From contig NZ_CP106855.1 in NCBI RefSeq assembly GCF_002209355.2, forward strand, positions 930,001-994,000: DNA of 64,000 nt. The letters are read 5' to 3'. Source of the stretch: Bdellovibrio sp. SKB1291214. GTDB lineage: Bacteria > Bdellovibrionota > Bdellovibrionia > Bdellovibrionales > Bdellovibrionaceae. A model generated the notes under the pieces. That model was not told where the DNA came from. It worked only from the letters and a program-made list of their open reading frames with translations, and made no database searches. Of this stretch, positions 5,993 to 53,465 are shown piece by piece (within the stretch, counting starts at the first letter, position 1; every line of letters begins with the position of its first letter). A program made the position numbers and the translations under genes.

Positions 5993-7759
5993 TTAGACCT
6001 CGCGATATTGTGGTCCGCCGCCACCTTCTGGCACCGTCCACTCGATGTTTTCGAATGGGCACTTAATATCACAAGTCTTACAGTGAATACAGTTGGTATA
6101 ATTGATTTGTAGGTCTTTCTTGCCTGCCTCTTTTGTAGACGGCACCATCTCGTAAACAGCGGCCGGGCAGAAATGATTACATGGTGATTTGTACTGAGGC
6201 TCACATACTGAGCGACAGATATCCCCATCTTTAAGGATTAGATGATTAGGAGAGTCCTCATCATGCATTGTCCCCGTCAAATAAACGCTAGAAAGCTTAT
6301 CAAAGAACAGTTGACCATCTGGTTTTGGAAGTTGTTCTAATTGCTCCTCAAAGCCATTAGGTCCCCAAACCTCAACAACCTTATTAGTTGTTGCCGCGTC
6401 CACGTGCTCGACAGGCATAGGATCCTGCAGGCCACGGCCCCCTGTGATCTCTTGAAGGGCGATCAAAGGCATACCCTCGATCATCCCCTTAGAAAGCGCC
6501 TGGTGGAAGTTTCTGACAGCCCATAGGTCTTTTTTAACGAAGCTGTTTTCGATGCGGGTTTCGTAAGCCTTAGTCACGGATTCATTGAACTCAGCGCCAG
6601 CAGCCAAGCCTTCGACGATCGTTTCAGCAGCCGACATACCGGCTTTCATTGACAGATGCAGACCTTTAAGTTTCTTAACGTCGACCATCGAAGCCGAGTC
6701 ACCGATAACCATCCAGCCATCACCGTAAAGTTTAGGCATTGAATACCAGCCCCCCGCAGGCAACGTTTTACCACCGTAAGCGATAACTTTACCGCCTTTA
6801 AGCATGTTCTGCATGAACGGATGAGTTTTCAATTTTTGAAGTTCACGGTGTGGGTCAAGCAATGGATCATTTGTGTCCAAGTATGCCACTAAGCCCACAA
6901 TGATTTTATCTTCAGGCAATGTGTAAATGAATGTACCACCGATGGATTTGCTTAAAGGGAAACCCATTGTGTGGATCACCTGACCCGCTTCAACAGTTCC
7001 CGCCGGCATCTGGATGATTTCTTTCACACCTTCTTCAAAGACTTCAGGATTTTTGCCTTCGCGAAGTTTCAGTTTCTCTGTTACTTTTTTGAACAATGAA
7101 CCGCGTGTCCCTTCGGCAAACACAGTCACTTTCGATTTCAAAATCAAACCTGGCTCGAAATTCCCTTTTGGATTTCCGTTTTTGTCACGACCCTTGTCGC
7201 CCGTGCGAACTCCAACGATTTTGTTACCTTCGTATAAAGCTTCAACTGCAGCGAAACCTGGGAAAATATTGATCCCTTTTTCTTCACACTTAGTACCCAA
7301 CCAACGGTTCAACTTACTTGCCGAAACAATGTAGTTACCTTCGTTATGAAATGGCGGAGGAGTGATAGGAAGTTTGAAAGAGTAATCAGTACCTAGATAG
7401 TAAACGGCATCTTTTTTAACTTCAGACTCAAGAGGACAGCCCTCATCCTTGAAGTTTGGAACCAGCTGACGAAGAGCCACTGGGTTTAGAACCGCACCAG
7501 ACAAGCTGTGTGCGCCCACTTCAGAAGCCTTTTCGATAACAACGATCATTTGTTCCGGAATAGGTTGGCCCTGTTTTTTTCCAGATGCCACGTCTTCATT
7601 GTGTTGATTGATTTGGTTTTGTAAATGAAGTGCGCAAGACAAACCTGCAGAACCACCACCCACGATCAGAACGTCACAGTCCATCGTTTCGCGAGTTACA
7701 CCTTCCGGCAAATGATCGTACACCATAGAATCTCCTACCGACTGATAAACAACGTCCAA
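5993..7759 (-). CDS. Electron transfer flavoprotein-ubiquinone oxidoreductase
   Basis: 588 aa, the normal size of ETF-QO. It passes electrons from reduced ETF (fatty-acid and amino-acid oxidation) to the quinone pool at the inner membrane. An FAD-binding GxGxxG motif is near residue 33 (VGGGSAGLSCAL), the central FAD/quinone region is intact, and the C-terminus carries the 4Fe-4S cluster motif CIHCKTCDIKCP together with an upstream Cys (HFC). The start is ATG 7759. Bacteria living on amino acids and lipids commonly have this enzyme, which fits a predatory lifestyle, but that link is inference. Confidence 0.95.
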   Translation of the reverse strand: MDVVYQSVGDSMVYDHLPEGVTRETMDCDVLIVGGGSAGLSCALHLQNQINQHNEDVASGKKQGQPIPEQMIVVIEKASEVGAHSLSGAVLNPVALRQLVPNFKDEGCPLESEVKKDAVYYLGTDYSFKLPITPPPFHNEGNYIVSASKLNRWLGTKCEEKGINIFPGFAAVEALYEGNKIVGVRTGDKGRDKNGNPKGNFEPGLILKSKVTVFAEGTRGSLFKKVTEKLKLREGKNPEVFEEGVKEIIQMPAGTVEAGQVIHTMGFPLSKSIGGTFIYTLPEDKIIVGLVAYLDTNDPLLDPHRELQKLKTHPFMQNMLKGGKVIAYGGKTLPAGGWYSMPKLYGDGWMVIGDSASMVDVKKLKGLHLSMKAGMSAAETIVEGLAAGAEFNESVTKAYETRIENSFVKKDLWAVRNFHQALSKGMIEGMPLIALQEITGGRGLQDPMPVEHVDAATTNKVVEVWGPNGFEEQLEQLPKPDGQLFFDKLSSVYLTGTMHDEDSPNHLILKDGDICRSVCEPQYKSPCNHFCPAAVYEMVPSTKEAGKKDLQINYTNCIHCKTCDIKCPFENIEWTVPEGGGGPQYREV

Positions 7760-11319: not shown

Positions 11320-11526
11320 ATGAATCACCAGCAAAACACACTTCTTAAATTACAAACTGATCTCAGCAAATTCGGGTTGAATCCGACGGAATGGACTCTC
11401 GAAAAAGTCCAAAACCTCTCTTACTTAATTAGAAATAAATTAGACAAAAGTTTCGCCCTCTATGGGCGACTTGAAATGAACAAAAACGTTCCCGCCTGGA
11501 AGTCCATTGACCTAGTGGCTCTCTAA
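11320..11526 (+). CDS. Small conserved-looking soluble protein
   Basis: 68 aa, with no signal peptide or membrane segment; predicted mostly helical (LLKLQTDLSKFG, LEKVQNLSYLIRNKLD). AAGGAAAC precedes the ATG at good spacing, which supports translation. Its end overlaps the convergent gene at 11523 by 4 bp. No family recognised. Confidence 0.6.
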   Translation: MNHQQNTLLKLQTDLSKFGLNPTEWTLEKVQNLSYLIRNKLDKSFALYGRLEMNKNVPAWKSIDLVAL

Positions 11527-12194
11527 AAAACGTCGCAGCGAACTGAAAACAAGCTGCGATTCCAAATATCAACCTCAGTAAGGACCGTTGTGGCCTTTCG
11601 AGCCTCCACAGTTGAGACTGTGCCCTCGGGAGTCAGCGGTACCTCCTCCCCCGGAAGCTTGGCAGCGACTCTTTGACGAAGAGCTGTCCAAGCTTCTTCT
11701 CCGTTAGCCCTGATGAATGTACTTTTCAAACGACAGAACGTTGCGATTTCCGCTTCAGACAACCAACCAAATCGATCATAGGTACCGGGCTCTGGCGGCT
11801 TCACTCCCCAAGCCAAACGGACCATCAATTCAATTCCATCATTCAAAGTCGAAGTGACTTCTTTCACCCCGAACATTTGCGATGCGCATTGGCTGGAACT
11901 TTTGTTCACAGCGTCCGCGATGTTTTTTAAAGTCGAAAAATATTCGTAGCAAGATCCCGCACTGTTCCCCAGCTGACATGCCTCTTTTTCGCGCACAATT
12001 GATGGTGGAATCGTATTTTTTTTCACCTGGGTCGAGAACAACTGCCCCTTGAGATATTCACGCATCGCCGCCTCTTCGGTGTCACAAACCGTGTGAGGTG
12101 GGTTTAAAAGCATAATAACGACCACTCCGATAACCAGAGCGCCAATGACTAGCACCGGCTTAGGCAGATCATTTAGAAACTTATCCAAATCCAT
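11523..12194 (-). CDS. Membrane-anchored periplasmic protein, unknown
   Basis: 223 aa: one N-terminal membrane helix (about 14-31, VLVIGALVIGVVVIMLL) followed by a soluble domain with six or so Cys (VCDT, ACQL, SCYEY, QCASQ, FCRL, VRCDVF), suggesting an oxidised periplasmic fold. It is the last chromosomal protein gene before tRNA-Pro and is transcribed away from it. No family recognised. Confidence 0.7.
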   Translation of the reverse strand: MDLDKFLNDLPKPVLVIGALVIGVVVIMLLNPPHTVCDTEEAAMREYLKGQLFSTQVKKNTIPPSIVREKEACQLGNSAGSCYEYFSTLKNIADAVNKSSSQCASQMFGVKEVTSTLNDGIELMVRLAWGVKPPEPGTYDRFGWLSEAEIATFCRLKSTFIRANGEEAWTALRQRVAAKLPGEEVPLTPEGTVSTVEARKATTVLTEVDIWNRSLFSVRCDVF

Positions 12195-12213: not shown

Positions 12214-14017
<1,804 letters not shown>

Positions 14018-14028
<11 letters not shown>

Positions 14029-14218
14029 CGAGTAACTCCTCTCTTTCTTTTTTTAACCGTCCCCGCTTATGCGCTAGGACTATCATCTCAGAAATCAAAG
14101 ACTGGACTTCGGAAGACCTTTTAAAGTCATGAGGTCTCTGGTCCTTTTCATAAGTAGCTAGAACCAAACTTCCATGAGGCCCTACCTTAGGGTCCTTTGG
14201 GCTCTTCCTTCTACTCAC
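14018..14218 (-). CDS. Small basic ICE protein upstream of the integrase
   Basis: 66 aa, charged, no membrane segment; C-terminal half predicted helical (SLISEMIVLAHKRGRLKKEREELL). Its 3' end overlaps the recombinase start by 11 bp and its 5' end overlaps the HTH gene by 8 bp, so all are probably one operon. No family recognised; a role as accessory factor of recombination is possible from position only. Confidence 0.65.
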
Positions 14219-14456
14219 CAGAGTCCTCCTTGATCTTGCTCATTTGTTTTAGCAATAGATCAATCAGCTTCTGTGACTCCTTCTTTGGAAGCAACGCCAG
14301 CACTTCCATCACCGCACTCATCAAATTACTTGGACGGCGACCTCCGGCCTCATATCGACTGATAACAGTCTTATCCGCCACTCCAAGAATGAGGGCAGCA
14401 TCATCCTGGGTTAAGTCCAATCCCAAACGAATTTCTCTAAATCTCTTTGGACTCAC
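14211..14456 (-). CDS. XRE-type HTH regulator
   Basis: 81 aa. A helix-turn-helix of the lambda-Cro/MqsA type (LTQDDAALILGVADKTVISRYEAGGRRPS, about 15-43) occupies the N-terminal half, followed by a short helical tail. Lies between two overlapping ICE genes leading into the integrase, so it probably controls its own operon and thus integration/excision. Confidence 0.8.
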   Translation of the reverse strand: MSPKRFREIRLGLDLTQDDAALILGVADKTVISRYEAGGRRPSNLMSAVMEVLALLPKKESQKLIDLLLKQMSKIKEDSGE

Positions 14457-14839
14457 GCCGCATCCCCACTTTCATCATGTTGACCATTGGTCAACTTATT
14501 AGTCAAGCCTCTCTTGTTCTTTTTAGCGCCACCAAGACTTATATTGGCCTGCCCCATCAATGCCAACTTTAATTCTTCTGGGACTGAACCGCTTAGTTTG
14601 GCTTTCTTCAAAATGTTCTCCAACAAGGCAATTTCATTGAAAAACTCAGCCCTGATCTGGTGCACGTCACCATCGCCACATGTCTCATTGAATCGTGTCA
14701 AAACCCAACTTGCTACATCTTGTCTCGTTACTCTCCCCGCATCAAACCCCTCATTAACACGAGCCACAATTTGACTGACTGCCTCTTCGGCTTGCTTCGT
14801 TATGGTGATCTTCGTTACTAACTCCTCTTTTTCTTCCAT
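14453..14839 (-). CDS. ICE accessory protein, possible MobC-like relaxosome component
   Basis: 128 aa, soluble, N-terminal segment (KITITKQAEEAVSQIVARVNEGF) that could form a ribbon-helix-helix, then a helical middle (FFNEIALLENILKKAKLSG) and a polar tail. No cysteine motif. It is first in the operon leading to the integrase and lies directly next to the candidate oriT, which is where MobC-like DNA-binding helpers are found. Family assignment is inference; no relaxase domain. Confidence 0.5.
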   Translation of the reverse strand: MEEKEELVTKITITKQAEEAVSQIVARVNEGFDAGRVTRQDVASWVLTRFNETCGDGDVHQIRAEFFNEIALLENILKKAKLSGSVPEELKLALMGQANISLGGAKKNKRGLTNKLTNGQHDESGDAA

Positions 14840-14903
14840 GTATTTACCTCCCCGTATTCAAAATCGGGATGCGCCGCTTGTAGCATCCATCATTCGCAGA
14901 ATT

Positions 14904-15020
14904 TGAAATTATATGAGGTAGGTAGCCCCACTGTTTCAATTCGAAGCCTATCAATGACTAAATCTAAAACTGTTTTTTTAATCTCAACAGCACTTCAGCT
15001 ACCTGCCTCTTATAATTTCA
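14904..15020. repeat. Long-range inverted repeat in the candidate oriT region
   Basis: The 23-bp arms 14904-14926 and 14998-15020 are inverted copies matching at 21 of 23 positions (TGAAATTATA...GGTAGC), 71 bp apart. They border the first part of the 394-bp non-coding region 14840-15233. Confidence 0.75.
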
Positions 15021-15084
15021 AGTGTTTGTGTTTTGTATCTATCTAAATATTTTTTATCTATCTCTCATCTCCTCTTCCTCTCAG

Positions 15085-15157
15085 CTCCATCCCCCGTTTC
15101 GTGACCCCTTTCTCTCGTAGGGAGGGAGGGGTCACGAACCGTAGGAGGGGGATGGAG
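15085..15157. other. Nested palindrome, candidate origin of transfer (oriT)
   Basis: Outer arms CTCCATCCCCC (15085-15095) and GGGGGATGGAG (15147-15157) are perfect inverted copies. Immediately inside, GTTTCGTGACCCCT (15096-15109) pairs with AGGGGTCACGAAC (15127-15139) with a single bulged T. CGTAGG(G/A) occurs in both the loop and the right shoulder. This dense symmetry in the only large non-coding gap of the transfer region, next to possible relaxosome genes, is what oriT looks like. A replication origin or regulator site is the alternative. Confidence 0.55.
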
Positions 15158-15233
15158 GTGGGAGGAAGTCCCCTGTTTCTCTTCAAACTCCGAATACTTA
15201 CCCGCATTTCAGCATCCCTAGTTTTCTTGAAAA

Positions 15234-16004
15234 TCAGCCGGAAACATTCCGGTGATTTTCCGGCGCGCTCTTCACCGATACCGCCAGAGAATTGAAGAAC
15301 TTCCTCAGAATGGTTTTCCGTCCCGCAATCCGAAGCTCACAATCCAAATGCCTCCGAGAGAAATCATCCAAATCAAAAAATCCGATCTCTTGATTCGCCG
15401 AGCTCAATCCACCCGACCTAAATTCTTCCGAAATCACCATTTCGATTTTCTCGTCCGCAACACCGAAGAGAACCAAGTCTACATTTCGTGCTCTTTGATA
15501 TGCTCGCCTCATGGTTTTATACCGAGCTTGCGATTTCCTTGTCCGCTCGATCTCGAGAGCGCAACGAATGAAATTGCTACCTCCCGTTACATCAAAAAGT
15601 AAGTCTGGTAGCTTGGAGATAATTCCATCTCCCAATCCTTTTACAGCAATAACTCGATCCGATTTTAGCTCAGCCTCTGACCAGCTTTGCCTCAACATCT
15701 GCTGATTCTTGAGGTGAAGATAAAATCGCATAACAATCTCATCATGTAGCAAATAGGTTGGAACAATCTGGCCGATAGAATCCTGTCCCATTCGTTGCTT
15801 CCCCTTTGAACTCAGCGAAAGGAAATCAGGAACTCCCGAACCATTCGAATAAGCTGTAAAAAAAGATGAGTTTTTAAGCTCACTCCAATTTTGATAGCGG
15901 ACTGACTTTCCTTCTGAGCAATAGAAATCCCAAAAGACAGCTTTTGATATGAAACCGAACTTCTTCGAAAGCAGCAGCGCCTCTTCAATGGAACTACTTC
16001 TCAC
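15234..16004 (-). CDS. Replication-relaxation-like protein, candidate ICE relaxase
   Basis: 256 aa. N-terminal winged-helix-like part (about 5-75), then a middle and C-terminal region whose pattern PDLLFDV ... ALEIERTRKS ... RY (about 145-180) resembles the Replic_Relax family and the PD-(D/E)XK nuclease fold. There is no HUH relaxase motif. It precedes the candidate oriT and follows the coupling-protein gene in the transfer operon, a natural place for the DNA-processing protein. A non-catalytic DNA-binding role is equally possible. Confidence 0.5.
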   Translation of the reverse strand: MRSSSIEEALLLSKKFGFISKAVFWDFYCSEGKSVRYQNWSELKNSSFFTAYSNGSGVPDFLSLSSKGKQRMGQDSIGQIVPTYLLHDEIVMRFYLHLKNQQMLRQSWSEAELKSDRVIAVKGLGDGIISKLPDLLFDVTGGSNFIRCALEIERTRKSQARYKTMRRAYQRARNVDLVLFGVADEKIEMVISEEFRSGGLSSANQEIGFFDLDDFSRRHLDCELRIAGRKTILRKFFNSLAVSVKSAPENHRNVSG

Positions 16005-16293
16005 TATTCAGAACTCCAGTCCCCATCGGGACCAATGCAAAGTGCCCCAACTCCAAAACACCATTATGAAAATTAGTCTCTACCCACTGATAACTCCACT
16101 TCACTTCAGAGAGATTGAAATCTAAAGACTTTGGCAACTCCAACTCATAACCGATTACCACCTGCCTGACTCTAATCGAACATCCTCGCACAGGATCATA
16201 AATCGCACCGAAGCCGTCGCTACTGTTCGCACATGGCGATTTACTTACGCAGCCCGCGGCTACAAAAACATAAAACAAGATAAGTATTTTCAA
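15994..16293 (-). CDS. Small lipoprotein in the transfer operon
   Basis: 99 aa: lipoprotein signal peptide with lipobox VAAGC (Cys 15), then a short mature domain with two more Cys (SPCANS, RGCSIR). Entry-exclusion proteins and VirB7-like lipoproteins have this form, but no specific similarity is visible. It overlaps the downstream gene by 11 bp and follows the coupling-protein gene by 11 bp, so it belongs to the operon. Confidence 0.65.
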   Translation of the reverse strand: MKILILFYVFVAAGCVSKSPCANSSDGFGAIYDPVRGCSIRVRQVVIGYELELPKSLDFNLSEVKWSYQWVETNFHNGVLELGHFALVPMGTGVLNSEK

Positions 16294-16304: not shown

Positions 16305-17894
16305 TCAGCTTGCCTCCAATATTGAAGATCTATTTTGAGAACCTTTAAGTTCAATGAACTCAACTTTCGCCTTCGCAATCCGAGGAAGCTTGTGTGCTTT
16401 CAAATCGGGTTGCATTTGAAACTTCAGGCGCTCCGTAAATGCACCGTCATTAAATGGAACGACAATAACTCCGTCCCCCGTACCAAGTTCTTTCTTGAAG
16501 GTATTGGGATGATAAATGAACTCCTCGACATCACGTACTGACCCATCTCCAGTCATCTCACTTCCAAACAATCCTTTCTTGGCTCTCTCAGTCATCTTGG
16601 TTCCCTCTTTGGTTCCGATCAGTCTTGAAAAATACTCAGCAGTTTCAGGCTCATTCGTTCGCATGAAAACTTTTAGGTTTGAATTTGTCTGGATTGTGTT
16701 CTTCACTTCCTCACCCAATGCACCAAGGTCTCCCTGAGCTTGATGCGCAAAAGTGATTCCAACATTTGCACTTCTAGATTTATTTAGGAGGCTGACGAAA
16801 CTCGGAATCAAGTACTCGGTAAAGTCATCCAGATAGACACCAAAAAATGGGAAGCTCTTGTCTTCATCCAAATGCCGACTTGATACTGAGCTTTGGATAC
16901 ATTGAAGTACCAACTTGGCTGTTGCCTTTCCGAGTGTTGGAGTTTTTAAAACAGGCAATTGGAAATATACGATCAATCCTTCACGCATCACATGCTCAAT
17001 GTCGATCTGGGGCATGTCAGAGTTAAAGAGAATCGCCGTTTCCCCCGAGGTAAAATGTCCCAACTGATTAACTAGGCCACTCGTTCTCTTTTCCCGATCT
17101 TCTTTTGACAGAGCAACGAAGCGATCCGCCCAGGCCGTTAAACCTGGGTCGTCAGTAGAATTCGCCAAAGACATAAGAACTGATGGATTCGTAATTGCCT
17201 GAATCAATTTATTGAAAGTCGGAATCACTTCAGCTCCTTCAAACAAATAAAGAGTCTGCTTTAAGATCTCGTATTGAAGATTTTTGTAATATTCATCTTC
17301 AAAAGAGAACGCAGCAAAGATTCGCTCCGTCACTTCGTCAGCAGATCCCCCCTTTAATGGATTAATACTTGAACTCGTTTCCGGATTTACTAGCGATAAC
17401 ATCCTGAAATCTTTAGATCGCTTATACTTCACAGCATAGGCGTATAATTTGTCCAACAAACCCTTGTCAGACTTTCCGTCAATCAAAATAAGTCCTCGGC
17501 CATTCTTGATATCATCAATTGCCCAAGGCAAAATCACCGACTCCGTTTTTCCGGCATTTGTCGTTCCGACAATCTGCGTGTGCATCCGTCTTGCCGTCAG
17601 TGGAATGTAGACTGGCTTCTGCTCTACCGACGTCCCAAGGAAAATGCTATCCTTCGCAGTAACACGATTCAGGCGGGTTTTGACCTCCTTCGCTTTCGAC
17701 CTTTCAGCAAACTCAGTTCTAAACTTCGCGAAAAAAAATACGACCACAAACGATATGACTGATGCAGTTATATATCGGTGTCTAACAATGGCACTCAGTA
17801 TTTGCGGCGCCAAATTATGAAACGCCAGTACCACAAATAGAACAATCAACATGACAATCCCGAATAGCTCTTTGCTATCGTTATTATTGTTCAA
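16305..17894 (-). CDS. Type IV coupling protein (VirD4/TraD-like)
   Basis: About 529 aa. Two N-terminal membrane helices, Walker A GTTNAGKT (about 110), Walker B in GVYLDDFTEYL (about 320), and a C-terminal RecA-like region with an arginine-finger segment (RTNEPETAEYF). It brings the relaxosome to the secretion channel and powers DNA export. I prefer the TTG at 17894 (CAGGA 7 nt upstream), which overlaps the VirB10 stop by 11 bp; the ATG at 17966 would overlap by 83 bp. Last of the channel genes. Confidence 0.88.
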   Translation of the reverse strand: MNNNNDSKELFGIVMLIVLFVVLAFHNLAPQILSAIVRHRYITASVISFVVVFFFAKFRTEFAERSKAKEVKTRLNRVTAKDSIFLGTSVEQKPVYIPLTARRMHTQIVGTTNAGKTESVILPWAIDDIKNGRGLILIDGKSDKGLLDKLYAYAVKYKRSKDFRMLSLVNPETSSSINPLKGGSADEVTERIFAAFSFEDEYYKNLQYEILKQTLYLFEGAEVIPTFNKLIQAITNPSVLMSLANSTDDPGLTAWADRFVALSKEDREKRTSGLVNQLGHFTSGETAILFNSDMPQIDIEHVMREGLIVYFQLPVLKTPTLGKATAKLVLQCIQSSVSSRHLDEDKSFPFFGVYLDDFTEYLIPSFVSLLNKSRSANVGITFAHQAQGDLGALGEEVKNTIQTNSNLKVFMRTNEPETAEYFSRLIGTKEGTKMTERAKKGLFGSEMTGDGSVRDVEEFIYHPNTFKKELGTGDGVIVVPFNDGAFTERLKFQMQPDLKAHKLPRIAKAKVEFIELKGSQNRSSILEAS

Positions 17895-18792
17895 TTGACG
17901 ATCCTGATTGTAGATCCATTGCCTCGGACAACTGAGCATCACATTCAGAGTTCGGCTGAAGCTCAATCCACTCGCGCTCTGCTTTTAGGTTCTCTCCATA
18001 AGTTTGAGCCTTGCCTCTCGCCGTTTCAGCTACAGCAGTCAGAATCCCATTTCCAATTCCACCTTGAGATCTGCCAAAAATGTCTGTCTGCACGCTGCCA
18101 GCCGCAAGCCCACCTACGAAAGATGTAATTACTTGCCCCGCCGTGTTTTTAGTTCCATCGGAATAGACTCTTCCCGAAATTCCGACCTGCCCATCTTTTC
18201 CAAGTGCTCTAGCATTTATCGGCTTCATCAGTCCATTTAGGAGGGAGATTTGTTTAAATTGGATTAAGGCCCGATCACTTCCTTTAATAAAGGTGGCCTC
18301 TCCATAAAACCTCGTCCCTGCTTGAAGCTTTAAACCAGACTCAGTCTCTCCATCCATAAGCAGCTCAGCGAGAACCGGAACCGATTCTTGCGACACGACG
18401 ACCTTATCTAAAATCCGAAGAGGCAATCTTAATCCTGGATGAAGTCTCGATTTCGCGTTTCGACCTGATCCAATGACCATTGCCGTATTATAGTTAATTT
18501 GTCTGCTGTCGCCTCCTACTCCAAAGCTTTCTCTCTTGGGGGCTGACCAGAGTTGTTTCGAATCAGATTTGGCCTGGGTATTTCGGGAGCTTTCAATTCC
18601 CGGTTCGATTGATGGCTCGATCTTCTCAGAGAATTCTACCGGAAGCTCGTTAGGCATTAACAAAACGACGACTACAAATACCGCCAAACCCACAATCCCC
18701 AACCACTTGAATGAAGACAGGTTCAATTCAATCTTTGAGCCAAAACTACCCTTCCGAATAAATATCGCCTTTAGCTTAGCTATTAGTTCTAT
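17884..18792 (-). CDS. VirB10/TrbI/TraB-like channel protein, probable ATA start
   Basis: VirB10-family protein spanning the envelope: short cytoplasmic N-terminus, one membrane helix (WLGIVGLAVFVVVVLL), Pro/Glu-rich linker, and the C-terminal beta-barrel domain with RLPLRILDKVVVS and the DGQVGISGRV segment. A conventional TTG start exists at 18726, but it lacks a ribosome site and removes the cytoplasmic part. The frame is open 22 codons further to an ATA (18790-18792) with AAGGAGG 4 nt upstream, overlapping the stop of the preceding gene; the added residues (MELIAKLKAIFIRKG if initiated there) look like a genuine VirB10 N-terminus. Length 280 or 302 aa. Confidence 0.8.
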   Translation of the reverse strand: MELIAKLKAIFIRKGSFGSKIELNLSSFKWLGIVGLAVFVVVVLLMPNELPVEFSEKIEPSIEPGIESSRNTQAKSDSKQLWSAPKRESFGVGGDSRQINYNTAMVIGSGRNAKSRLHPGLRLPLRILDKVVVSQESVPVLAELLMDGETESGLKLQAGTRFYGEATFIKGSDRALIQFKQISLLNGLMKPINARALGKDGQVGISGRVYSDGTKNTAGQVITSFVGGLAAGSVQTDIFGRSQGGIGNGILTAVAETARGKAQTYGENLKAEREWIELQPNSECDAQLSEAMDLQSGSSIEQ

Positions 18793-19484
18793 AGGGCCTC
18801 CTTGGGAATCTCAATTCTGAGGTTTTTAGAAGAAGTTTGAAGTTCCAACACGACTTCCTGAATTTTGAGATCAGCCTTTCTAATTGAAATGCCAATCATA
18901 GACTGTTGGCCTTTCCGCAATTCCTTGCGTGAAAGAAAAAGACTCTGGATTGGCTTCGAGTCCTTTCCTTGCCAAATCCAAAAGTTTGCCGGCAACAGAG
19001 TTTGTGAAGCCTTCGCGGTTACCTCAGCATCCAAAAGCACGAATCCGTCTGCTGTAGTGGAGGTCCTCAAAAGCTTCATTGAGAGATCAGGAGTTGAGAC
19101 AGTCTTCCCATTACTCGTCCAACGTAGGACCGTCCCAGAGTCTCTGTTCTTGATATAAACAACGTAGTTAGCAAGGTTTTGAGGAACCACGGCAAGACGA
19201 AGTATGTACCTACGAGACTTCGTAAAAAGATACAGATTCGTCTTTGCGCTACCACGCAATGGCTTAATCGTTACCGCTTGATCTAAATATTCAATGCGAT
19301 ACGCAGACAGGTCTCCCGAAATAGCGGACTGAACTGTTTCAGGCATTTGCACGATAGTTGCGATACCAAGAGCAGTCTTGATATCGACAATTTCATCAGT
19401 CTTTGGTGTCAGAGTTTTGATGTTTGCGAACGAATGACACGTCAGGAAAATAGCAGCGAAATGAATTAGGAAAGCAACCCTCAA
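18789..19484 (-). CDS. VirB9/TraK-like outer-membrane channel protein
   Basis: 231 aa with a signal peptide (MRVAFLIHFAAIFLTCHSFA). Mature N-terminal region follows the TraK/VirB9 pattern: the VQSAISGD step, YRIEYLDQAVTIKPLRGSAKTNL and then YLFTKSRRYILRL. VirB9 binds VirB10 and forms the outer-membrane ring of the channel. The ATG overlaps the previous stop (ATGA type), and the stop overlaps the VirB10 start. Confidence 0.78.
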   Translation of the reverse strand: MRVAFLIHFAAIFLTCHSFANIKTLTPKTDEIVDIKTALGIATIVQMPETVQSAISGDLSAYRIEYLDQAVTIKPLRGSAKTNLYLFTKSRRYILRLAVVPQNLANYVVYIKNRDSGTVLRWTSNGKTVSTPDLSMKLLRTSTTADGFVLLDAEVTAKASQTLLPANFWIWQGKDSKPIQSLFLSRKELRKGQQSMIGISIRKADLKIQEVVLELQTSSKNLRIEIPKEAL

Positions 19485-20068
19485 CGGATTTCCCCTTCAG
19501 TTTCCTTACGGATGTAAATCCCCCAAGGATTCAGACTTGTTCGATCTCCCGATGAGAAATCAAAAACTACCTTCAGCTTTGTTGCTGCACTCAAACTGTC
19601 AAATTCGGTAATTCGGTCCGCCAAAACCGTGACTTTCATCTGTTTCAAGTCGACTTTGACATCGCTCGGATAGACTCTCTGATTCACCTTCTTCTCTTTA
19701 ACAAACTTTTGAACATCCAACATCGCCTTTTGAAACGAAGGAATTAGGCTCGGGTCAATAAAGACCTCTGCTTTCTTCATCTGAAAAGCAACAGTGTCTG
19801 GAGTCCATTTGTAGCGATATGAAAGATACTCTTCAATCGCGGAAGCAATCTGCGCATCAGTAATTTTTAACTCGAGCTTTGCAACAGCACCAGTCGCATC
19901 AAGCGCAATTACCTCTGGGCCTCTCTTAACCAAATAGGCAATCAGGCCCGACATGATGAAGAGAATTGCCAAAAGCGCTGCCGAAAGAACTTTAAGGTCA
20001 AAGTTCTCACGCGCAAACTCTTGCACAATCTTCGGATAGTTTTTAATAATCAGTGATTTAGTTTCCAT
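19481..20068 (-). CDS. VirB8/TraE-like inner-membrane channel protein
   Basis: 195 aa: short cytoplasmic N-terminus, one membrane helix (about 29-48), and a periplasmic domain of the TraE/VirB8 type containing YLSYRYKWTPDTV and a C-terminal beta-rich part. TraE proteins form the periplasmic core platform. Lies between VirB6 and VirB9 homologues, the order found in F-like systems (TraL-E-K-B). Confidence 0.78.
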   Translation of the reverse strand: METKSLIIKNYPKIVQEFARENFDLKVLSAALLAILFIMSGLIAYLVKRGPEVIALDATGAVAKLELKITDAQIASAIEEYLSYRYKWTPDTVAFQMKKAEVFIDPSLIPSFQKAMLDVQKFVKEKKVNQRVYPSDVKVDLKQMKVTVLADRITEFDSLSAATKLKVVFDFSSGDRTSLNPWGIYIRKETEGEIR

Positions 20069-20085: not shown

Positions 20086-20925
20086 TTAATTCTTAGATGA
20101 AAAGTATTTAAAGCTGTTTGAGAGAACCTCCCTCGATGTCGTCGAAACCTTGATAGCCCTAGTTGGAATTGCGATCATAGCTGCCGCAGCGGCAGTGCCC
20201 ATTGTTGAAGCTGCACTTTGCAAGCCCTCACCAACAATTGATTTTACGAGCATCGGCGTACAGAGCAGACCAATCGCAATTACAAAATTGAGAACTGTCA
20301 GCGTGATATACGATCCTTCAGTCTTATAGATGTTTCCTACCGATAAGGCCGCAAGCATAGCCGACTGCACAGCCCATATAATTTTCCAAGAGGCGACTTC
20401 GATTAATCCCCGATACAGTCCTTTCGTAATTCCCGCAGTTGCAGGGAATATGTAACAAAGGATCAGAATCGGCGAAAGAACCGACAGCATCACCCAAAAG
20501 AAGTAATACAGAGCAATCGTCAAATATCTGGCGACGTAAAGGATCACGTAACTAGCAAAACTCAAAACCGCTATAAACAGATCGTTAAACTTCAGTAGTA
20601 AAACACTCTGCGCTCCTGCATAGCTTCTCGATTTTTCCTCCGCCATCTTCATGAAGGCATCTAATCCAGCCATTGAATCAATCTTTCCTGCAAGCCCATC
20701 GCAGATATCCAAAATCCAGCCTGAAACTTCAGGAAATGAGACAAGCAGAAGAGTCGCTATCAACGCCCTTCGAACTATATCCATGTAGTCAGGACTTCCA
20801 CCTTTAACGAAGCTGATGCAAACAGACAGCAAAATCGCAACAGGTAGTGCAACATAGAAGAGGTTCGCAAGCATGTGATGCAAATCCCGAATCAAAGAGC
20901 CAAGTACATCCATATTGGGCATCAC
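20086..20925 (-). CDS. VirB6/TrbL-like polytopic channel protein
   Basis: 279 aa with five or more membrane helices, including FYVALPVAILLSVCISF and a central pair; hydrophobic Ala/Gly-rich C-terminal part. Position between VirB5 and VirB8 homologues and topology identify it as the VirB6-type inner-membrane subunit. GTG 20925 (AAGGTGG 6 nt upstream) overlaps the previous stop; ATG 20922 is the alternative. Confidence 0.72.
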   Translation of the reverse strand: MMPNMDVLGSLIRDLHHMLANLFYVALPVAILLSVCISFVKGGSPDYMDIVRRALIATLLLVSFPEVSGWILDICDGLAGKIDSMAGLDAFMKMAEEKSRSYAGAQSVLLLKFNDLFIAVLSFASYVILYVARYLTIALYYFFWVMLSVLSPILILCYIFPATAGITKGLYRGLIEVASWKIIWAVQSAMLAALSVGNIYKTEGSYITLTVLNFVIAIGLLCTPMLVKSIVGEGLQSAASTMGTAAAAAMIAIPTRAIKVSTTSREVLSNSFKYFSSKN

Positions 20926-21626
20926 TAGCCACCACCTTGCAGACGTGGAAGATTAGTTTCCGTCGGAAGCTTCTTAAGGCCATCAGACAGGTCTCGATAG
21001 TTTTCCTGAAACCCTTTTGTCTGAATCTTTTCCCTACGGTTCTCCATCGCCATGTTTTGTGCGAGGAGCTTTAGCATCTGACTTTGAGTACGCAGTAACT
21101 GAGTCGTTACTCCGATCAAGACACTCAGAGCCTGATTCTGAAGTTTTCCAGCTCCCTGAGGGCTTACGACTTGAGAGTGATATAGTATCCGCTCACGCTC
21201 CCGATCAACTTCATCAGCATAGTCGTAAAGCCTTCTATTCATGGAGATAGTCTCGGCAACACTCTGATCCTGCGAAGTCATAAGATCCTGGTCCATTCCA
21301 CGAGGGACTTCCCCGTAGACCTCTTGTATCGCACGCAAAACCGAATCTGAGTTGTTCAAGTCACCATAGACTCCGGGATTGAATTTCGGATTGATAATTC
21401 GAATGACATCAAGGCCGGATCGCACTCCAGAGTTCAAATCCCTCATTAAATTCAAAGTATCCTGCCCATTTGAAAGAATGGACTTCAACTGAATAACCGT
21501 TTGAATGGTTTGGACCAGGATTTGAGTTAGGACGACAACATCCCCGCCAAAAAGATCAGCACGTGCTGACATTGGCGCCAGCAACATCATAGATGACACT
21601 AGCAATGCAAGAAGCCTCCTCCTCAC
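20925..21626 (-). CDS. VirB5/TrbJ-like periplasmic protein
   Basis: 233 aa with a signal peptide (MRRRLLALLVSSMMLLAPMSARA) and a mostly helical, Gln-rich mature chain (VLVQTIQTVIQLKSIL; LSVLIGVTTQLLRTQSQMLKLLAQN). TrbJ/VirB5 proteins are pilus-tip or assembly factors with this profile. GTG start overlapping the VirB4 stop. Confidence 0.72.
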   Translation of the reverse strand: MRRRLLALLVSSMMLLAPMSARADLFGGDVVVLTQILVQTIQTVIQLKSILSNGQDTLNLMRDLNSGVRSGLDVIRIINPKFNPGVYGDLNNSDSVLRAIQEVYGEVPRGMDQDLMTSQDQSVAETISMNRRLYDYADEVDRERERILYHSQVVSPQGAGKLQNQALSVLIGVTTQLLRTQSQMLKLLAQNMAMENRREKIQTKGFQENYRDLSDGLKKLPTETNLPRLQGGG

Positions 21627-24088
21627 GCAGCCACCTTTGTCGCCGATGAATCAACTCCAAAAGGAGCTTCTTTCGCAGCTTTCAGAATTGCTCCTTCAAG
21701 CGAGACGCCACTATCTATAATTCCTTGCAAATAGCAGTTGTCAGAAGCATCACTCGTTGAAATCCAGTATTCCACTGGCGACGGTTGGATTCGCAGCACT
21801 TGCCTTGAGTCTCCATTCATCACAAAAACATCGCTAAAGGCGCCTTTCCTACGATCTAAACTTTCAATTAATCGAACCTCTTGAGATTTTAAGCGCAGAG
21901 CCTCTTTCAATATCTTTGTGTCTCCTTGTTGCTGAAGAATCATTTTGGTTGCCGTGTTATTAAGAATTGCCGAACCAATCGCACTCTCAACGATCTCTTC
22001 AACTCCCTGAGTAATAAACGTGATTCCTGAGCCCGTTTTCCTGAGGGCTCTCGCCGCATACTCCATGAACGTGCTTGCGGCTTTGCTCTGAAGGAAGGAC
22101 CAAGCTTCATCAAGCAAAACACGCTTTGGTACGCCCTTGTTTAACTCCACCTGATCCAAAATAAATCCCGTGAGAATCAAAGTTACGACTGACTGAAGAT
22201 CAGGATACTGCGCAAGCCCCTTCAAATCGAAAGCAACTACAGGACTATCAGCATTAATCTTCCCCTGACGATCAATGAGCTTGCCGTAGGCACTGTTTCC
22301 AATCCAAGGATACAAAAGCTTTCCAATACGCTTAAGAGTCTCCTCCTTAGACTTTTCACAATGTCTAGCGAAGTCAGAAATCTGTGGCGATCTCTGAGGA
22401 GTCTTAGTACGAATATCCTCGAATACAGCCGCCAATGCCTCCTCAATCAAAACACGGTCAAAACGTAGAAGCTTCTCCCCTTCATCTACGATCATTTGCT
22501 CTATGATATTAACTAGAGCCTTAATGCGTTCCGAAGAAACTTTTTCTCCGGGATTCTGAAGTTGAAAGGGATTAAGGGCATACTCAGCGGTCAAATTGAT
22601 TTCAAAGTATTGACCCTTCATAATATTCGTTAGCTTTTTATAACTTCCTCCAACGTCAATAACGAAAAGCTTCACTCCGCGAGCTATTTGCTGAAGCATG
22701 AAGAAATTGTTGGTAAAACTCTTCCCTGCGCCGCTAGAACCAGTCACTAATGAGTTGTAGTTATTTAGTTTGGAATCATACGAATCAAGTGCATAAAGAG
22801 AACCCGACCGAGTATGAGTCAGCACCAGTGGTCGATCATCCCCGGCATCACTTCCATACAGGGGAAGAAAGTCAGCCAAGTTGTTTGACTTCATCTTTTT
22901 GCCACGAACAAGCGCCATAGGACTTCCTATGAGCTCATTCGAGAATATCTTCCAGGCTCCAACAGTTTCTTGAATTCCCTCTGCTCCACTGAGTTTCCTA
23001 AAGCATGACAGGATTTCTTTGCTGCGAAGATTAATTCGTTTGTTCCCTTGGGCCGTATTTTCCTCACGAAGTATCAATAGCAGTTCACCGACGAACACTC
23101 TTTGGCCAGTATCAATAATCTCCCTAATCAAATCAGTAGTCTGTGCGAGGCGAGATTCGCCTTCCAAATCACTTACACGACCATGGTTATTAGTTGTAAG
23201 CGAGTGAGCCATACGCCGCTTCTGCTCTAAGCCTTTAATCTCTGAGGCCTGATCTGGAATATGGAAAGAAAAGATCATTTCGTATTTGAATGCTACATTT
23301 GCAAAGAGGCTCATCATGCCCGCAAATGTTGATTCCGGGAGAGTTTTTAGCGTCAAAACCCTTGTAAGAGTTCGATCCAAAACAAAGTCCTCTTGATTAA
23401 GAATTAAATCTCCGAAAATCAATTGATTTCTCGGAGACTCGCTCTCCAGCGACTCGGGTCTCGCGGCAATTGTCGGAGCATCTACTTCCCGGGACCTTTT
23501 TGGATTTAAGTGTTTGTATGCAAGTGAAATCAATTGTTCACGAGATAGAACTTTGCTCTGGAAGCCCGCTGAACCCAAAATTGATTGAGCATTCTGCAAA
23601 GCCTGCATTAAACTTTGAATCGCTGACGACATGTCATTTCCGTACGTCACAGCAAACTTCTGTGTTTTCTTCAGGGCGAGTGCAGATGGCTTTTCAGGCG
23701 ACTCGGTTTTCAGGAAAAAGAAAACCCTCGGGCGATAAACTTCCTCTCGCTGAACTTGGCCACTTAACTCACTGATACGATCATCATCCAAAGTCATTAA
23801 AAACTCATTATCTGTAATTCTAAGATTCGAGTGTCTCTCCAGAACATCACCGAATTCAGCCTCTACCTTTACACAAACTTGGGCCGTCATCTTCTCCGGC
23901 AAGGAATTAACCAACGTCCTTAGATTCAAAGTGATTTGGTTAATGGCAGGAGCATCCAGACAGCCAATATCTTTTGGAACGATTTCGATTCCACTTGATA
24001 GCGATCCATCCCAAAGTAAAAGATGAGGGTTTGAACCAGATTCAAACTCCCAATATGGAAGCGACTCACATAAAGCGTTGCTACTCAT
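21623..24088 (-). CDS. Conjugation ATPase VirB4/TraC
   Basis: 821 aa, the usual VirB4/TraC size. Walker A GSSGAGKS (about 450), Walker B VLLDEAWSFL (about 690), preceded by the N-terminal TraC-type domain (PYWEFESG). Energises pilus and channel assembly on the cytoplasmic side of the inner membrane. Overlaps its upstream partner by 8 bp and its downstream partner by 4 bp. Confidence 0.93.
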   Translation of the reverse strand: MSSNALCESLPYWEFESGSNPHLLLWDGSLSSGIEIVPKDIGCLDAPAINQITLNLRTLVNSLPEKMTAQVCVKVEAEFGDVLERHSNLRITDNEFLMTLDDDRISELSGQVQREEVYRPRVFFFLKTESPEKPSALALKKTQKFAVTYGNDMSSAIQSLMQALQNAQSILGSAGFQSKVLSREQLISLAYKHLNPKRSREVDAPTIAARPESLESESPRNQLIFGDLILNQEDFVLDRTLTRVLTLKTLPESTFAGMMSLFANVAFKYEMIFSFHIPDQASEIKGLEQKRRMAHSLTTNNHGRVSDLEGESRLAQTTDLIREIIDTGQRVFVGELLLILREENTAQGNKRINLRSKEILSCFRKLSGAEGIQETVGAWKIFSNELIGSPMALVRGKKMKSNNLADFLPLYGSDAGDDRPLVLTHTRSGSLYALDSYDSKLNNYNSLVTGSSGAGKSFTNNFFMLQQIARGVKLFVIDVGGSYKKLTNIMKGQYFEINLTAEYALNPFQLQNPGEKVSSERIKALVNIIEQMIVDEGEKLLRFDRVLIEEALAAVFEDIRTKTPQRSPQISDFARHCEKSKEETLKRIGKLLYPWIGNSAYGKLIDRQGKINADSPVVAFDLKGLAQYPDLQSVVTLILTGFILDQVELNKGVPKRVLLDEAWSFLQSKAASTFMEYAARALRKTGSGITFITQGVEEIVESAIGSAILNNTATKMILQQQGDTKILKEALRLKSQEVRLIESLDRRKGAFSDVFVMNGDSRQVLRIQPSPVEYWISTSDASDNCYLQGIIDSGVSLEGAILKAAKEAPFGVDSSATKVAA

Positions 24089-24407
24089 TCAATTCCCCTT
24101 TCTTGATACGATAGTTTTCATCGGTCCCATTCGCCGAGCGTACAGTTGGAGCAAGCAAATGCTCAAAATAGTGTCGAATATGGTTTTCAGGCTTCCCTTT
24201 CTTAAAAAAGAAAAGCATAAGCCCAATAACAGCACTCGTTCCAAAGACCATTGGAATCTTGACCGGAGTGCTCCCGAAAATCAGATTTTGAATCGAAAGA
24301 TTCAGAAGCAAAATCAGCACATCAGACAATTCAAATCCCATAATTTTGCTTTTTGTTTCTAGGGTTCGCGGCACATTTGAAGTAAGTAATTCATCGTTAT
24401 TACTCAT
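24081..24407 (-). CDS. VirB3/TraL-like membrane protein
   Basis: 108 aa with one or two hydrophobic segments (FELSDVLILLLNLSIQNLIF; PMVFGTSAVIGLMLFFF), ending in a polar tail with PENHIRHYFEHL, characteristic of TraL. Sits between the pilin and VirB4 genes exactly as virB3/traL does. Confidence 0.75.
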   Translation of the reverse strand: MSNNDELLTSNVPRTLETKSKIMGFELSDVLILLLNLSIQNLIFGSTPVKIPMVFGTSAVIGLMLFFFKKGKPENHIRHYFEHLLAPTVRSANGTDENYRIKKGELNE

Positions 24408-24409
24408 AG

Positions 24410-24724
24410 CTACCTGACCGTTTGGGAAATCATGTCTGCAATAGACTGAGCCCCAAATCCAATGGCAGTTCCTATGATCGCATAGATAATGTGTTTCTTA
24501 GCGTTCTCGTGCCCGGTAATAAAGGAAAGCCCGGCAAGAGCAATTCCAATTACGGAAAGAACAGGCAGGATTACCCTCGTAAGTTTTGTCTGAACTCCCA
24601 TGAGCGAGGATTCGACACTTGCTTGCGCAACAATAGGAATCATCAAGATGCTCAACATGAAAAGTAAGATAACCAAAGCTACTTTCACCAAGTCGATTTT
24701 CTTGAAGCTCCTAGCTTGCAGCAT
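24410..24724 (-). CDS. Conjugative pilin VirB2/TrbC
   Basis: About 104 aa: long signal/first helix ending near AQA, then two hydrophobic segments (LTRVILPVLSVIGIALAGLS; HIIYAIIGTAIGFGAQ) separated by a short charged loop, as in VirB2-type pilins. ATG 24724 has AGGAG 4-5 nt upstream and overlaps the previous gene by 14 bp. Forms the pilus or channel lining. Confidence 0.8.
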   Translation of the reverse strand: MLQARSFKKIDLVKVALVILLFMLSILMIPIVAQASVESSLMGVQTKLTRVILPVLSVIGIALAGLSFITGHENAKKHIIYAIIGTAIGFGAQSIADMISQTVR

Positions 24725-25115
24725 AGAACTCCTCTGCTTGCTTCTCATCAGGAAAAAGACACAGAAAAACCTCTTCAGACAAAAGATTGAACTTCATCCT
24801 GATATGCAATCCGACGAAATCCCCTTTCCCAATGCATTGCCAAGAAGCCTTCTTCTCTTTCAATTGAGATTCAAATTCTTCCAAAGACAAGATTTTGTAC
24901 GCCGTGGATTTATCGTTAGAAGGAGAAAGGAAATATTGTTCATTCGGGAACATCCAAAGTTTAATTCGGAATGTTTTGGAGCCCGGCTTTAGATAAGCAA
25001 CGCCTACTTGCTCGTACTCGATGAGTTCATCATCTGGCCCCATAGTTCCCCGACAGAGGGCAAATTTATCGAGCTTCTTTAAAGGAATAACGTTCTGATT
25101 AAAAGTCACTGACAC
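24711..25115 (-). CDS. ICE protein of unknown function at the head of the transfer operon
   Basis: 134 aa, soluble, no signal peptide or obvious motif; contains a LEEFESQLKEKKASWQCIG stretch and ends in a Glu-rich helix. Cotranscribed with the pilin gene (overlap) and the zinc-ribbon gene (7-bp gap). No family recognised. Confidence 0.6.
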   Translation of the reverse strand: MSVTFNQNVIPLKKLDKFALCRGTMGPDDELIEYEQVGVAYLKPGSKTFRIKLWMFPNEQYFLSPSNDKSTAYKILSLEEFESQLKEKKASWQCIGKGDFVGLHIRMKFNLLSEEVFLCLFPDEKQAEEFYAAS

Positions 25116-52783: not shown

Positions 52784-52964
52784 TTCCTTTCGCGGCCAAG
52801 AAGGGATCGCCAAGCCTTGGCGATCCCCAAGTCTCAGTTCGTGATTCGTAAATTAATCTAACTTGGGCCTTTAAAATGGCGGCATGGATGTCATTCACGT
52901 GTTTACCGACCGCCCACATTGATACGACCGTGAAGGACCACAGTATTATATTTGTGAAGTTCAT
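52755..52964 (-). CDS. Small membrane protein coupled to the recombinase-like ORF
   Basis: 69 aa with one N-terminal membrane helix (TNIILWSFTVVSMWAVG). ATG overlaps the previous stop (ATGA) with GGAGAG upstream, supporting translation. The second half passes through a strong hairpin (52803-52827) and may be shorter or spurious. No family recognised. Confidence 0.45.
   Translation of the reverse strand: MNFTNIILWSFTVVSMWAVGKHVNDIHAAILKAQVRLIYESRTETWGSPRLGDPFLAAKGTSGLVGGYF
52803..52827 (+). terminator. Hairpin after the arsenic operon
   Basis: GGGATCGCCA / TGGCGATCCC, 10 bp perfect with a 5-nt loop, ~20 bp after the arsC remnant. No T run follows, so a factor-dependent terminator or mRNA-stabilising end is more likely than a classical one. 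Confidence 0.5.
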
Positions 52965-53347
52965 AACTTCTCTCCTTTGATAATAATTTTCTTAGATTCA
53001 AAACGTGCGACGATCTTTTTGACCGCCTTGTTGTGCCACTCCTTGGCCTTTCGAGGCTTGATCTTCTTTCCATTCAGATATCGAGTGATGTCATTGGCGT
53101 TCATGCCTAACTTCCAATGGCGGTGGATTTTCATTAGTGCGTCGTATTCGATTGGGTTCTTAACTAGCTCACCCTGGAAGTAACAGTAGCCAAATGGTGG
53201 CGGCGCCTTGGTCTTCCGGATGCGCCATTGCGCCACCTGTTCTGGGGTTGGACTTGAAGGACGAAGTTCCAAGCCCGCCTTCAATAGCAGGTCTCGGACC
53301 TTCGTTTTCGAGATATTAAGCTCTTTAGCGACATCCCTTAACGTCAT
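52961..53347 (-). CDS. Recombinase-like DNA-binding ORF at the right end of the ICE (no catalytic domain)
   Basis: 128 aa from ATG 53347: helix-turn-helix (TLRDVAKELNISKTKVRDLL), then a part like the recombinase domain of large serine recombinases (PPFGYCYFQGELVKNP ... ITRYLNGKKIKPRKAKEWH ... VKKIVARF). The resolvase domain is absent. The frame is open upstream as far as attR (GRPKPVLCEPFQ ... ECIELYKKG) and, in the circular ICE, is in frame with the integrase at 12214. So it is either the C-terminal part of the episomal integrase, a directionality factor, or a remnant of an older recombinase. Confidence 0.7.
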   Translation of the reverse strand: MTLRDVAKELNISKTKVRDLLLKAGLELRPSSPTPEQVAQWRIRKTKAPPPFGYCYFQGELVKNPIEYDALMKIHRHWKLGMNANDITRYLNGKKIKPRKAKEWHNKAVKKIVARFESKKIIIKGEKL

Positions 53348-53432: not shown

Positions 53433-53447
53433 GGTTCGCATAATACA
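53433..53447. repeat. Right arm of the attP inverted repeat
   Basis: GGTTCGCATAATACA, exact reverse complement of 12358-12372. See the left arm. Confidence 0.8.
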
Positions 53448-53456
53448 GGCTTTGGG

Positions 53457-53465
53457 CGACCATTT
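53457..53465. other. attR core of the ICE (CGACCATTT)
   Basis: Direct copy of the attL core. Chromosome resumes on the right with a hairpin that would have followed tRNA-Pro before insertion. Confidence 0.8.

Follow-up and report, generated by a model that had tools for sequence, protein, structure and literature searches.

The window, by which we mean the whole 64,000-nucleotide stretch of DNA that was analysed, contains an ICE of ~41.1 kb (12347-53465, no strand assigned) lying between 9-bp direct repeats, CGACCATTT, of which one copy (12347-12355) is the 3′ end of a tRNA-Pro gene and the other lies at 53457-53465. A 15-bp inverted repeat is present inside these att repeats (12358-12372 / 53433-53447) and, as both kinds of repeat are found at both ends, the entire ~41-kb ICE lies inside the window. 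The attachment site is tRNA-Pro(TGG), called by ARAGORN at 12276-12352 on the plus strand, with its 3′ end as the left att repeat. On the left flank, the ORF at 11523-12194 was found in 23 of the 24 genomes of the genus, and this flank is therefore chromosomal. A large serine recombinase, the integrase, is encoded next to the attachment site at 12214-14028 on the minus strand (Pfam Resolvase, 6.8e-35, with Recombinase and Zn_ribbon_recom). Note that its ORF runs across tRNA-Pro, which lies on the other strand (12214-12352 part, RGDRIRTYDPLVPNQMRYQTALLP), so that the called C-terminus of the recombinase is a product of the attachment site. Just within the right end, 52961-53347 (minus strand) encodes a small HTH_17 protein with a weak match to the Recombinase domain, possibly a candidate excision factor; the DNA of this interval is ~76% identical in another element located at the same tRNA in genome G011. 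The cargo at 27529-51636 comprises a P-type ATPase, a cation efflux protein, a cupredoxin, regulators of the MerR and ArsR kinds, three RND pumps accompanied by outer-membrane and fusion partners, and an SBF-family transporter, possibly Acr3-like, followed by an FMN reductase; it looks like heavy-metal resistance.

The conjugation genes lie on the minus strand to the right of the integrase. In the order of transcription, we recognised a VirB2/TrbC pilin (24410-24748; Pfam TrbC, 1.1e-10), a VirB3-like protein (24081-24407), the VirB4/TraC ATPase (21623-24088; Pfam and NCBIfam), a VirB5-like protein (20925-21626), a VirB6/TrbL-like protein (20086-20925; weak Pfam match, 0.0035), a VirB8/TraE-like protein (19481-20068; Pfam, 2.5e-5, slightly below the curated cut-off), a VirB9/CagX-like protein (18789-19484; Pfam), a VirB10/TrbI-like protein (17884-18726; Pfam, 8.2e-8, again slightly below the curated cut-off) and a type IV coupling protein of the VirD4/TraD/TraG-like kind (16305-17966; Pfam TraG-D_C, 2.4e-12; NCBIfam SXT_TraD, 8e-33), the VirB3-like and VirB5-like assignments being made by position and conserved synteny only. 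Between the coupling protein and the relaxase gene, a small lipoprotein-like ORF (15994-16293, minus strand) is possibly VirB7-like. The relaxase gene, which encodes a 256-aa protein (15234-16004, minus strand, GTG start), belongs to an operon in which the T4SS genes, of the VirB2/B3/B4/B5/B6/B8/B9/B10 type, and the gene of the TraD/TraG-type coupling protein lie directly upstream of it. The original prediction spoke of a complete secretion system with its coupling protein; the VirB2-VirB10-type genes and the coupling protein are indeed there, but “complete” is slightly generous, as no VirB11 was noticed.

On the other side of the relaxase gene, a gap (14840-15233) holding an oriT-like structure is followed by two conserved neighbours, both on the minus strand. 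One is a 128-aa protein (14453-14839), recognised by synteny in most loci and by alignment, and possibly a candidate relaxosome accessory protein; its N-terminus appears ribbon-helix-helix-like by eye, but its model (pLDDT 70) gave no significant fold match. The other is a small HTH protein (14211-14456; Pfam HTH_3, 1.2e-5, and synteny). The same arrangement recurs in 20 or more loci, where the VirB2-...-VirB10 genes are followed by the coupling protein, in some cases the small lipoprotein-like ORF, and the relaxase, then by the gap with its hairpin, the 128-aa protein, the HTH protein and the serine recombinase. The adjacency of coupling protein and relaxase persists even at ~20% relaxase identity.

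We searched for an HUH relaxase at several levels. No HUH-type (H-x-H) motif was found in the ORFs of at least 120 aa between 12.2 and 54 kb, and Pfam scans of the main ICE ORFs returned no HUH, Rep or tyrosine-recombinase relaxase. Over the whole genome, the Relaxase (PF03432), TrwC (PF08751) and MobA_MobL (PF03389) profiles gave no match at E ≤ 0.1, each of the three exceeding its cut-off in a control genome. These empty scans bear out the claim that the ICE has no HUH relaxase, and a tyrosine-recombinase-like relaxase, looked for among its main ORFs, was not found either.

The protein proposed to take its place, 256 aa long, containing PDLLF...ALEIERT and lying beside a candidate oriT, is present as described. 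Searches with its single sequence gave no match in Pfam, nothing useful in PHROGs or among PDB sequences, and no homologue by tblastn in plasmid and phage collections; NCBIfam MobC (NF041423 MobC_subf) was matched at E 0.04 with 13.2 bits for a cut-off of 200 bits, which is a detection threshold and no biological feature. The single-sequence search did detect one further gene of this genome (E 2.9e-5), the product of which scores 38.9 bits against Pfam PF13814 Replic_Relax, above the curated cut-off of 25.3 bits, and relatives in 19 of 60 near genomes. Among 29 relatives, NF041423 matches 25 and PF13814 matches 6 (E ≤ 0.1). A profile of the 12 closest relatives, built without the bridging sequence from the same genome, aligns with CloDF13-type MobC with an hhalign probability of 94.7% and an E-value of 6e-8 (ALEIERTRKSQARY over AFEVERTVKSRRRY); with all 29 relatives these values become 97.8% and 9.7e-13, and the relatives' profile also matches the relaxase of pTEF1 (pAD1-type) at E 9.8e-7. 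Comparison with Replic_Relax and the relaxase families thus places the protein by way of its relatives, whose profile matches CloDF13-type MobC and one of which passes Replic_Relax.

Eight residues, H87, D88, P133, D134, E151, E153, K157 and Y162, are invariant in the 29 relatives; the codons of five of them lie on the minus strand within 15534-15746 (H87 15744-15746, D134 15603-15605, E151 15552-15554, E153 15546-15548, K157 15534-15536). The pattern H, D, E-x-E, K, R, Y is invariant in the Bdellovibrionota relatives, in CloDF13-type MobC and in the pTEF1 protein alike. The AlphaFold model of the 256-aa protein (pLDDT 88, pTM 0.88) predicts a winged helix over residues ~3-64 (H3-16 H21-28 H33-44 E49-51 E61-64) and an alpha/beta PD-(D/E)XK-like domain over residues ~82-232. 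Residues 2-76 of the model resemble MarR winged helices, with Z up to 6.8, and residues ~82-243 resemble PD-(D/E)XK nucleases, the best matches being YaeQ, FokI, VC1899, Can2, R.BspD6I2, Nt.BspD6I, PaqCI and BsaWI, with every Z below 8 and Foldseek E-values of 0.003 or worse, which are modest structural scores.

Taken together, profile grouping with MOBC, catalytic residues, predicted fold, synteny and the neighbouring oriT-like hairpin make the 256-aa protein the best relaxase candidate in the ICE, as had been proposed. It is best read as a divergent MOBC (MobC/TraX, Replic_Relax) relaxase, for which we infer relaxase activity, and the ICE most likely does without the ordinary conjugation nickase, using instead a restriction-enzyme-like one of the MobC/TraX kind. 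The further suggestion of a non-canonical relaxase outside its usual hosts has to be qualified twice. MOBC, which is PD-(D/E)XK-related, is already established on plasmids and ICEs of both Gram-negative and Gram-positive hosts (PMC12857230, a 2025 review), so that the kind of relaxase is known. Nor is the protein an oddity away from its hosts, as our profile search found relatives in 55 genomes out of a phylum-wide sample of 291.

We then turn to the gap between the relaxase and the 128-aa genes. Located ~65 bp downstream of the relaxase gene, a long covarying hairpin (15074-15168) carries an extra-helical insert on its 5′ arm, as read in the sense of mobC, and we read it as the oriT. Its inner stem (15099-15137), the proposed nic region, has the arms TCGTGACCCC (15099-15108) and GGGGTCACGA (15128-15137). 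A second inverted repeat (14903-15021, arms 14903-14926 / 14998-15021) lies between the hairpin and the 128-aa gene; it encloses a variable 70-100 nt, and its sequence covaries in close relatives (e.g. L035, L036, L038, L039). An equivalent of the main hairpin, of different sequence, is present in the corresponding gap of 15 relatives. In an alignment of 11 hairpins, standard pairs occupy 98.1% of the pair cells and 18 pairs have changed on both sides, a number reached in none of 500 shuffles; the covariation signal vanished when the pairing partner was shifted by a single column. Stem mismatches are strongly biased, with C.A in 93 cases vs G.T in 9 on the mobC-sense strand, mostly at a conserved spot near the apex; on the window plus strand they count as G.T wobbles and leave the inner stem without a break. 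Since C.A on one strand is G.T on the other, the plus strand would be the folded one, as single-stranded DNA or RNA, but this is a hint only, as the mismatch cases are not independent. In Rfam, the hairpin matched no curated bacterial RNA family; matches to eukaryotic miRNA families, far below their gathering scores, were discarded as an effect that any long hairpin would have.

The covariance model found two sites in the 3.68-Mb genome, one beside each MobC gene, the distance being ~35 bp at the second of these genes. In 60 relatives it found 54 distinct sites, and for 40 of them a MobC gene is located within 400 bp. As 11 of these 40 formed the training set of the model, the figure to consider is that of the non-training sites, 29 of 43 being MobC-adjacent vs roughly 0.1% expected. 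Overlap by chance was rejected, ~0.1% of the genomes being that close to a MobC gene. Among the 14 non-adjacent sites, four border the end of a contig, beyond which a MobC gene would be lost (L110, L112, L118, L119), five adjoin a serine recombinase with no MobC-like ORF (L106, L107, L108, L109, L111), two adjoin tyrosine-integrase-like genes (L113 and L117, the latter by a weak match) and three have no explanation (L114-L116). Two of these three (L114:2888-2950 and L115:3254-3316), on two contigs of genome G047, are 63-nt hairpins of identical sequence that contain the MOBC core, and no relaxase or integrase was recognised nearby. The seven integrase-side hairpins without MobC show the pattern expected of oriT-only hitchers; integrated elements that carry an oriT but lack a relaxase form a recognised class, iOriT (PMC11389934). 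The second MobC gene of the genome studied here, the Replic_Relax-positive relaxase gene at 1,368 kb, belongs to a second integrated element (G000:C1, about 1365800-1368730; L033:7803-10728), with a serine recombinase over tRNA-Ser and a short-form hairpin. No T4SS homologue was found there within a 20-kb stretch, and this element could be a hitchhiker using the channel of the 41-kb ICE.

In the mechanism that we propose, the N-terminal winged helix would bind oriT and the PD-(D/E)XK domain (H87, D134, E151, E153, K157), presumably with a metal, would cut one strand. The hairpin at 15074-15168 would serve as the oriT, with the cut placed in the inner stem, in GGGGTCACGA, and the nicked strand, of a polarity that we can suggest but tentatively, would pass to the adjacent coupling protein and then to the VirB-type channel, allowing the ICE to transfer. 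We consider it very probable that the 256-aa protein is the MOBC relaxase of the ICE and acts on this hairpin oriT.

The proposal is best judged against other readings of the same data. If the protein were a DNA-binding regulator, or a restriction- or defence-like nuclease, with the relaxase supplied in trans, one would understand why its best structural matches are winged helices of the MarR family and why no curated family is matched directly. Catalytic residues that are invariant across the relatives, a gene position fixed beside the coupling protein and the close profile match to CloDF13-type MobC all argue against such a role; moreover, the genome has no HUH relaxase of the three families, and the sole other candidate, the second MobC gene at 1,368 kb, is of the same family. 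We thus regard this reading as highly improbable. One may also take the hairpin not as an oriT but as an attP or accessory site of the serine recombinase, the gene of which lies within 0.2-1.5 kb of the hairpin in most ICEs and hairpin-only elements. The att repeats at the tRNA are, however, ~2.7 kb off, the hairpin also adjoins tyrosine integrases (L113, L117), and there are MobC-side hairpins with no serine recombinase found nearby (L025, L027, L031, L032, L120-L122). As the hairpin occurs with differing integrase types and also without any nearby, we rejected the recombinase-site reading, to which we give hardly any credence.

One may, lastly, accept the protein as the relaxase and take the hairpin for an RNA element, be it the 3′ terminus of the transcript of the relaxase gene or an antisense RNA, or else for a palindrome that regulates the T4SS operon; we find this unlikely. 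Strong covariation suits RNA as well as single-stranded DNA, the mismatch bias (93 vs 9) suggests that the antisense strand folds in one form or the other, and SGI1 reportedly needs a self-encoded small RNA for its mobilization (PMC9299015). On the other hand, the hairpin accompanies the relaxase gene whether it lies downstream or upstream of that gene, it is also carried by integrated elements that have no relaxase, and its matches among RNA families are chance miRNA-like ones. Beside their coupling or relaxase genes, furthermore, known MOBC plasmids carry inverted repeats that share this core, and in pMET1 two nic sites were placed inside such a repeat (PMC2262945). An oriT is therefore the reading of the hairpin that we retain.

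The less expected result is this hairpin, which covaries, tracks the relaxase family, occurs on relaxase-less islands and has a core common to the oriT regions of MOBC elements from other phyla. Few relaxases are as poorly understood as those of MOBC and, in a search that covered few subscription journals, we found no paper describing them in Bdellovibrio. As many divergent Bdellovibrionota relaxases each come with a hairpin of their own, relaxase-oriT recognition becomes open to co-variation study. The hairpin also marks relaxase-less islands that these ICEs could mobilize and that would otherwise be taken as immobile, and single-sequence Pfam relaxase screens miss conjugative elements in Bdellovibrionota.

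Among known MOBC systems, MobC of CloDF13 and its plasmid relatives has the same layout, with a winged helix and the PD-(D/E)XK motifs H...D...E-x-E...K...RY; it adjoins the coupling protein (MobB), and an inverted repeat with the core GACCACCC / GGGTGGTC is found near the module. It differs in sequence (19-24% identity) and in setting, the relaxase gene being carried here by an ICE that is self-sufficient and encodes a T4SS of its own, and the proposed oriT being downstream of mobC whereas in CloDF13 it is upstream of mobB. For this comparison we used the intact relative NZ_CP093273, because mobC is frame-broken in the CloDF13 record NC_002119 (L053); at 6840-7513 of that record the gene is split over several frames, it is intact in relatives with 96% DNA identity, and the breaks are probably old sequencing errors. 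CloDF13 is reportedly nicked at GGGTG/GTCGGG, a site said to come from work of Nunez and de la Cruz in 2001; the core of this decamer occurs exactly once in CloDF13, inside the inverted repeat. By analogy, nic would lie here near 15130/15131 (plus strand) or 15106/15105 (minus strand), which is a prediction only.

In Bacillota, pAD1 TraX and the replication-relaxation protein of pTEF1 share the catalytic residues and the winged helix, and in pTEF1 a nested inverted repeat, its core being TTCCTGACCA, lies between the coupling and relaxase genes. These are very distant in sequence and come from Gram-positive pheromone plasmids, and the direct repeats reported as the binding site of pAD1 TraX were not identified here. 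For TraX, mutagenesis supports a restriction-endonuclease-like site and the N-terminus is a winged HTH (PMC12857230); no 3D structure of a MOBC relaxase was known as of 2019 (PMC6499999). The enterobacterial pMET1, pCRY, HPI-ECOR31 and ICEKp1 are similar in organization, being ICEs or plasmids with a VirB-type T4SS and a mobB-mobC module, but their order is oriT-mobB-mobC, their integration system is another one and they belong to another phylum. As for the PF13814 Replic_Relax family itself, relatives including the second gene of the same genome are above its cut-off whereas the 256-aa protein is below single-sequence detection.

In the few MOBC plasmids examined, from which the Vibrio and Shigella ones of the match list were left out, inverted repeats adjoin the gene of the coupling protein or that of the relaxase. 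They read TTCCTGACCATTTT in the enterococcal plasmids, GCGCGACCACCCCC in the enterobacterial ones and GACCACCCGCAAAA in CloDF13, in most cases with an outer repeat as well, and the hairpin core TGACC(A/C)C recurs in the enterococcal and enterobacterial ones. Scanned with a matrix built from 59 Bdellovibrionota hairpin arms, the repeat arms rank 2nd-3rd of 99,974 sites in pTEF1, 1st-2nd in the enterococcal L134 and L136, 1st and 2nd in the enterobacterial L137 and L139, respectively, 4th in L140, 9th of 19,888 in CloDF13 and, poorly, 18th in the enterobacterial plasmid L138. We lean, by a modest degree, towards the view that MOBC relaxases of different phyla share one kind of oriT, a long and often nested inverted repeat with (T)GACC(A/C) in its inner arm, read as the folded strand, and that this motif can serve to detect ICEs driven by MOBC as well as hitchhiker islands that have no relaxase, among them a hidden conjugation network of the predatory Bdellovibrionota.
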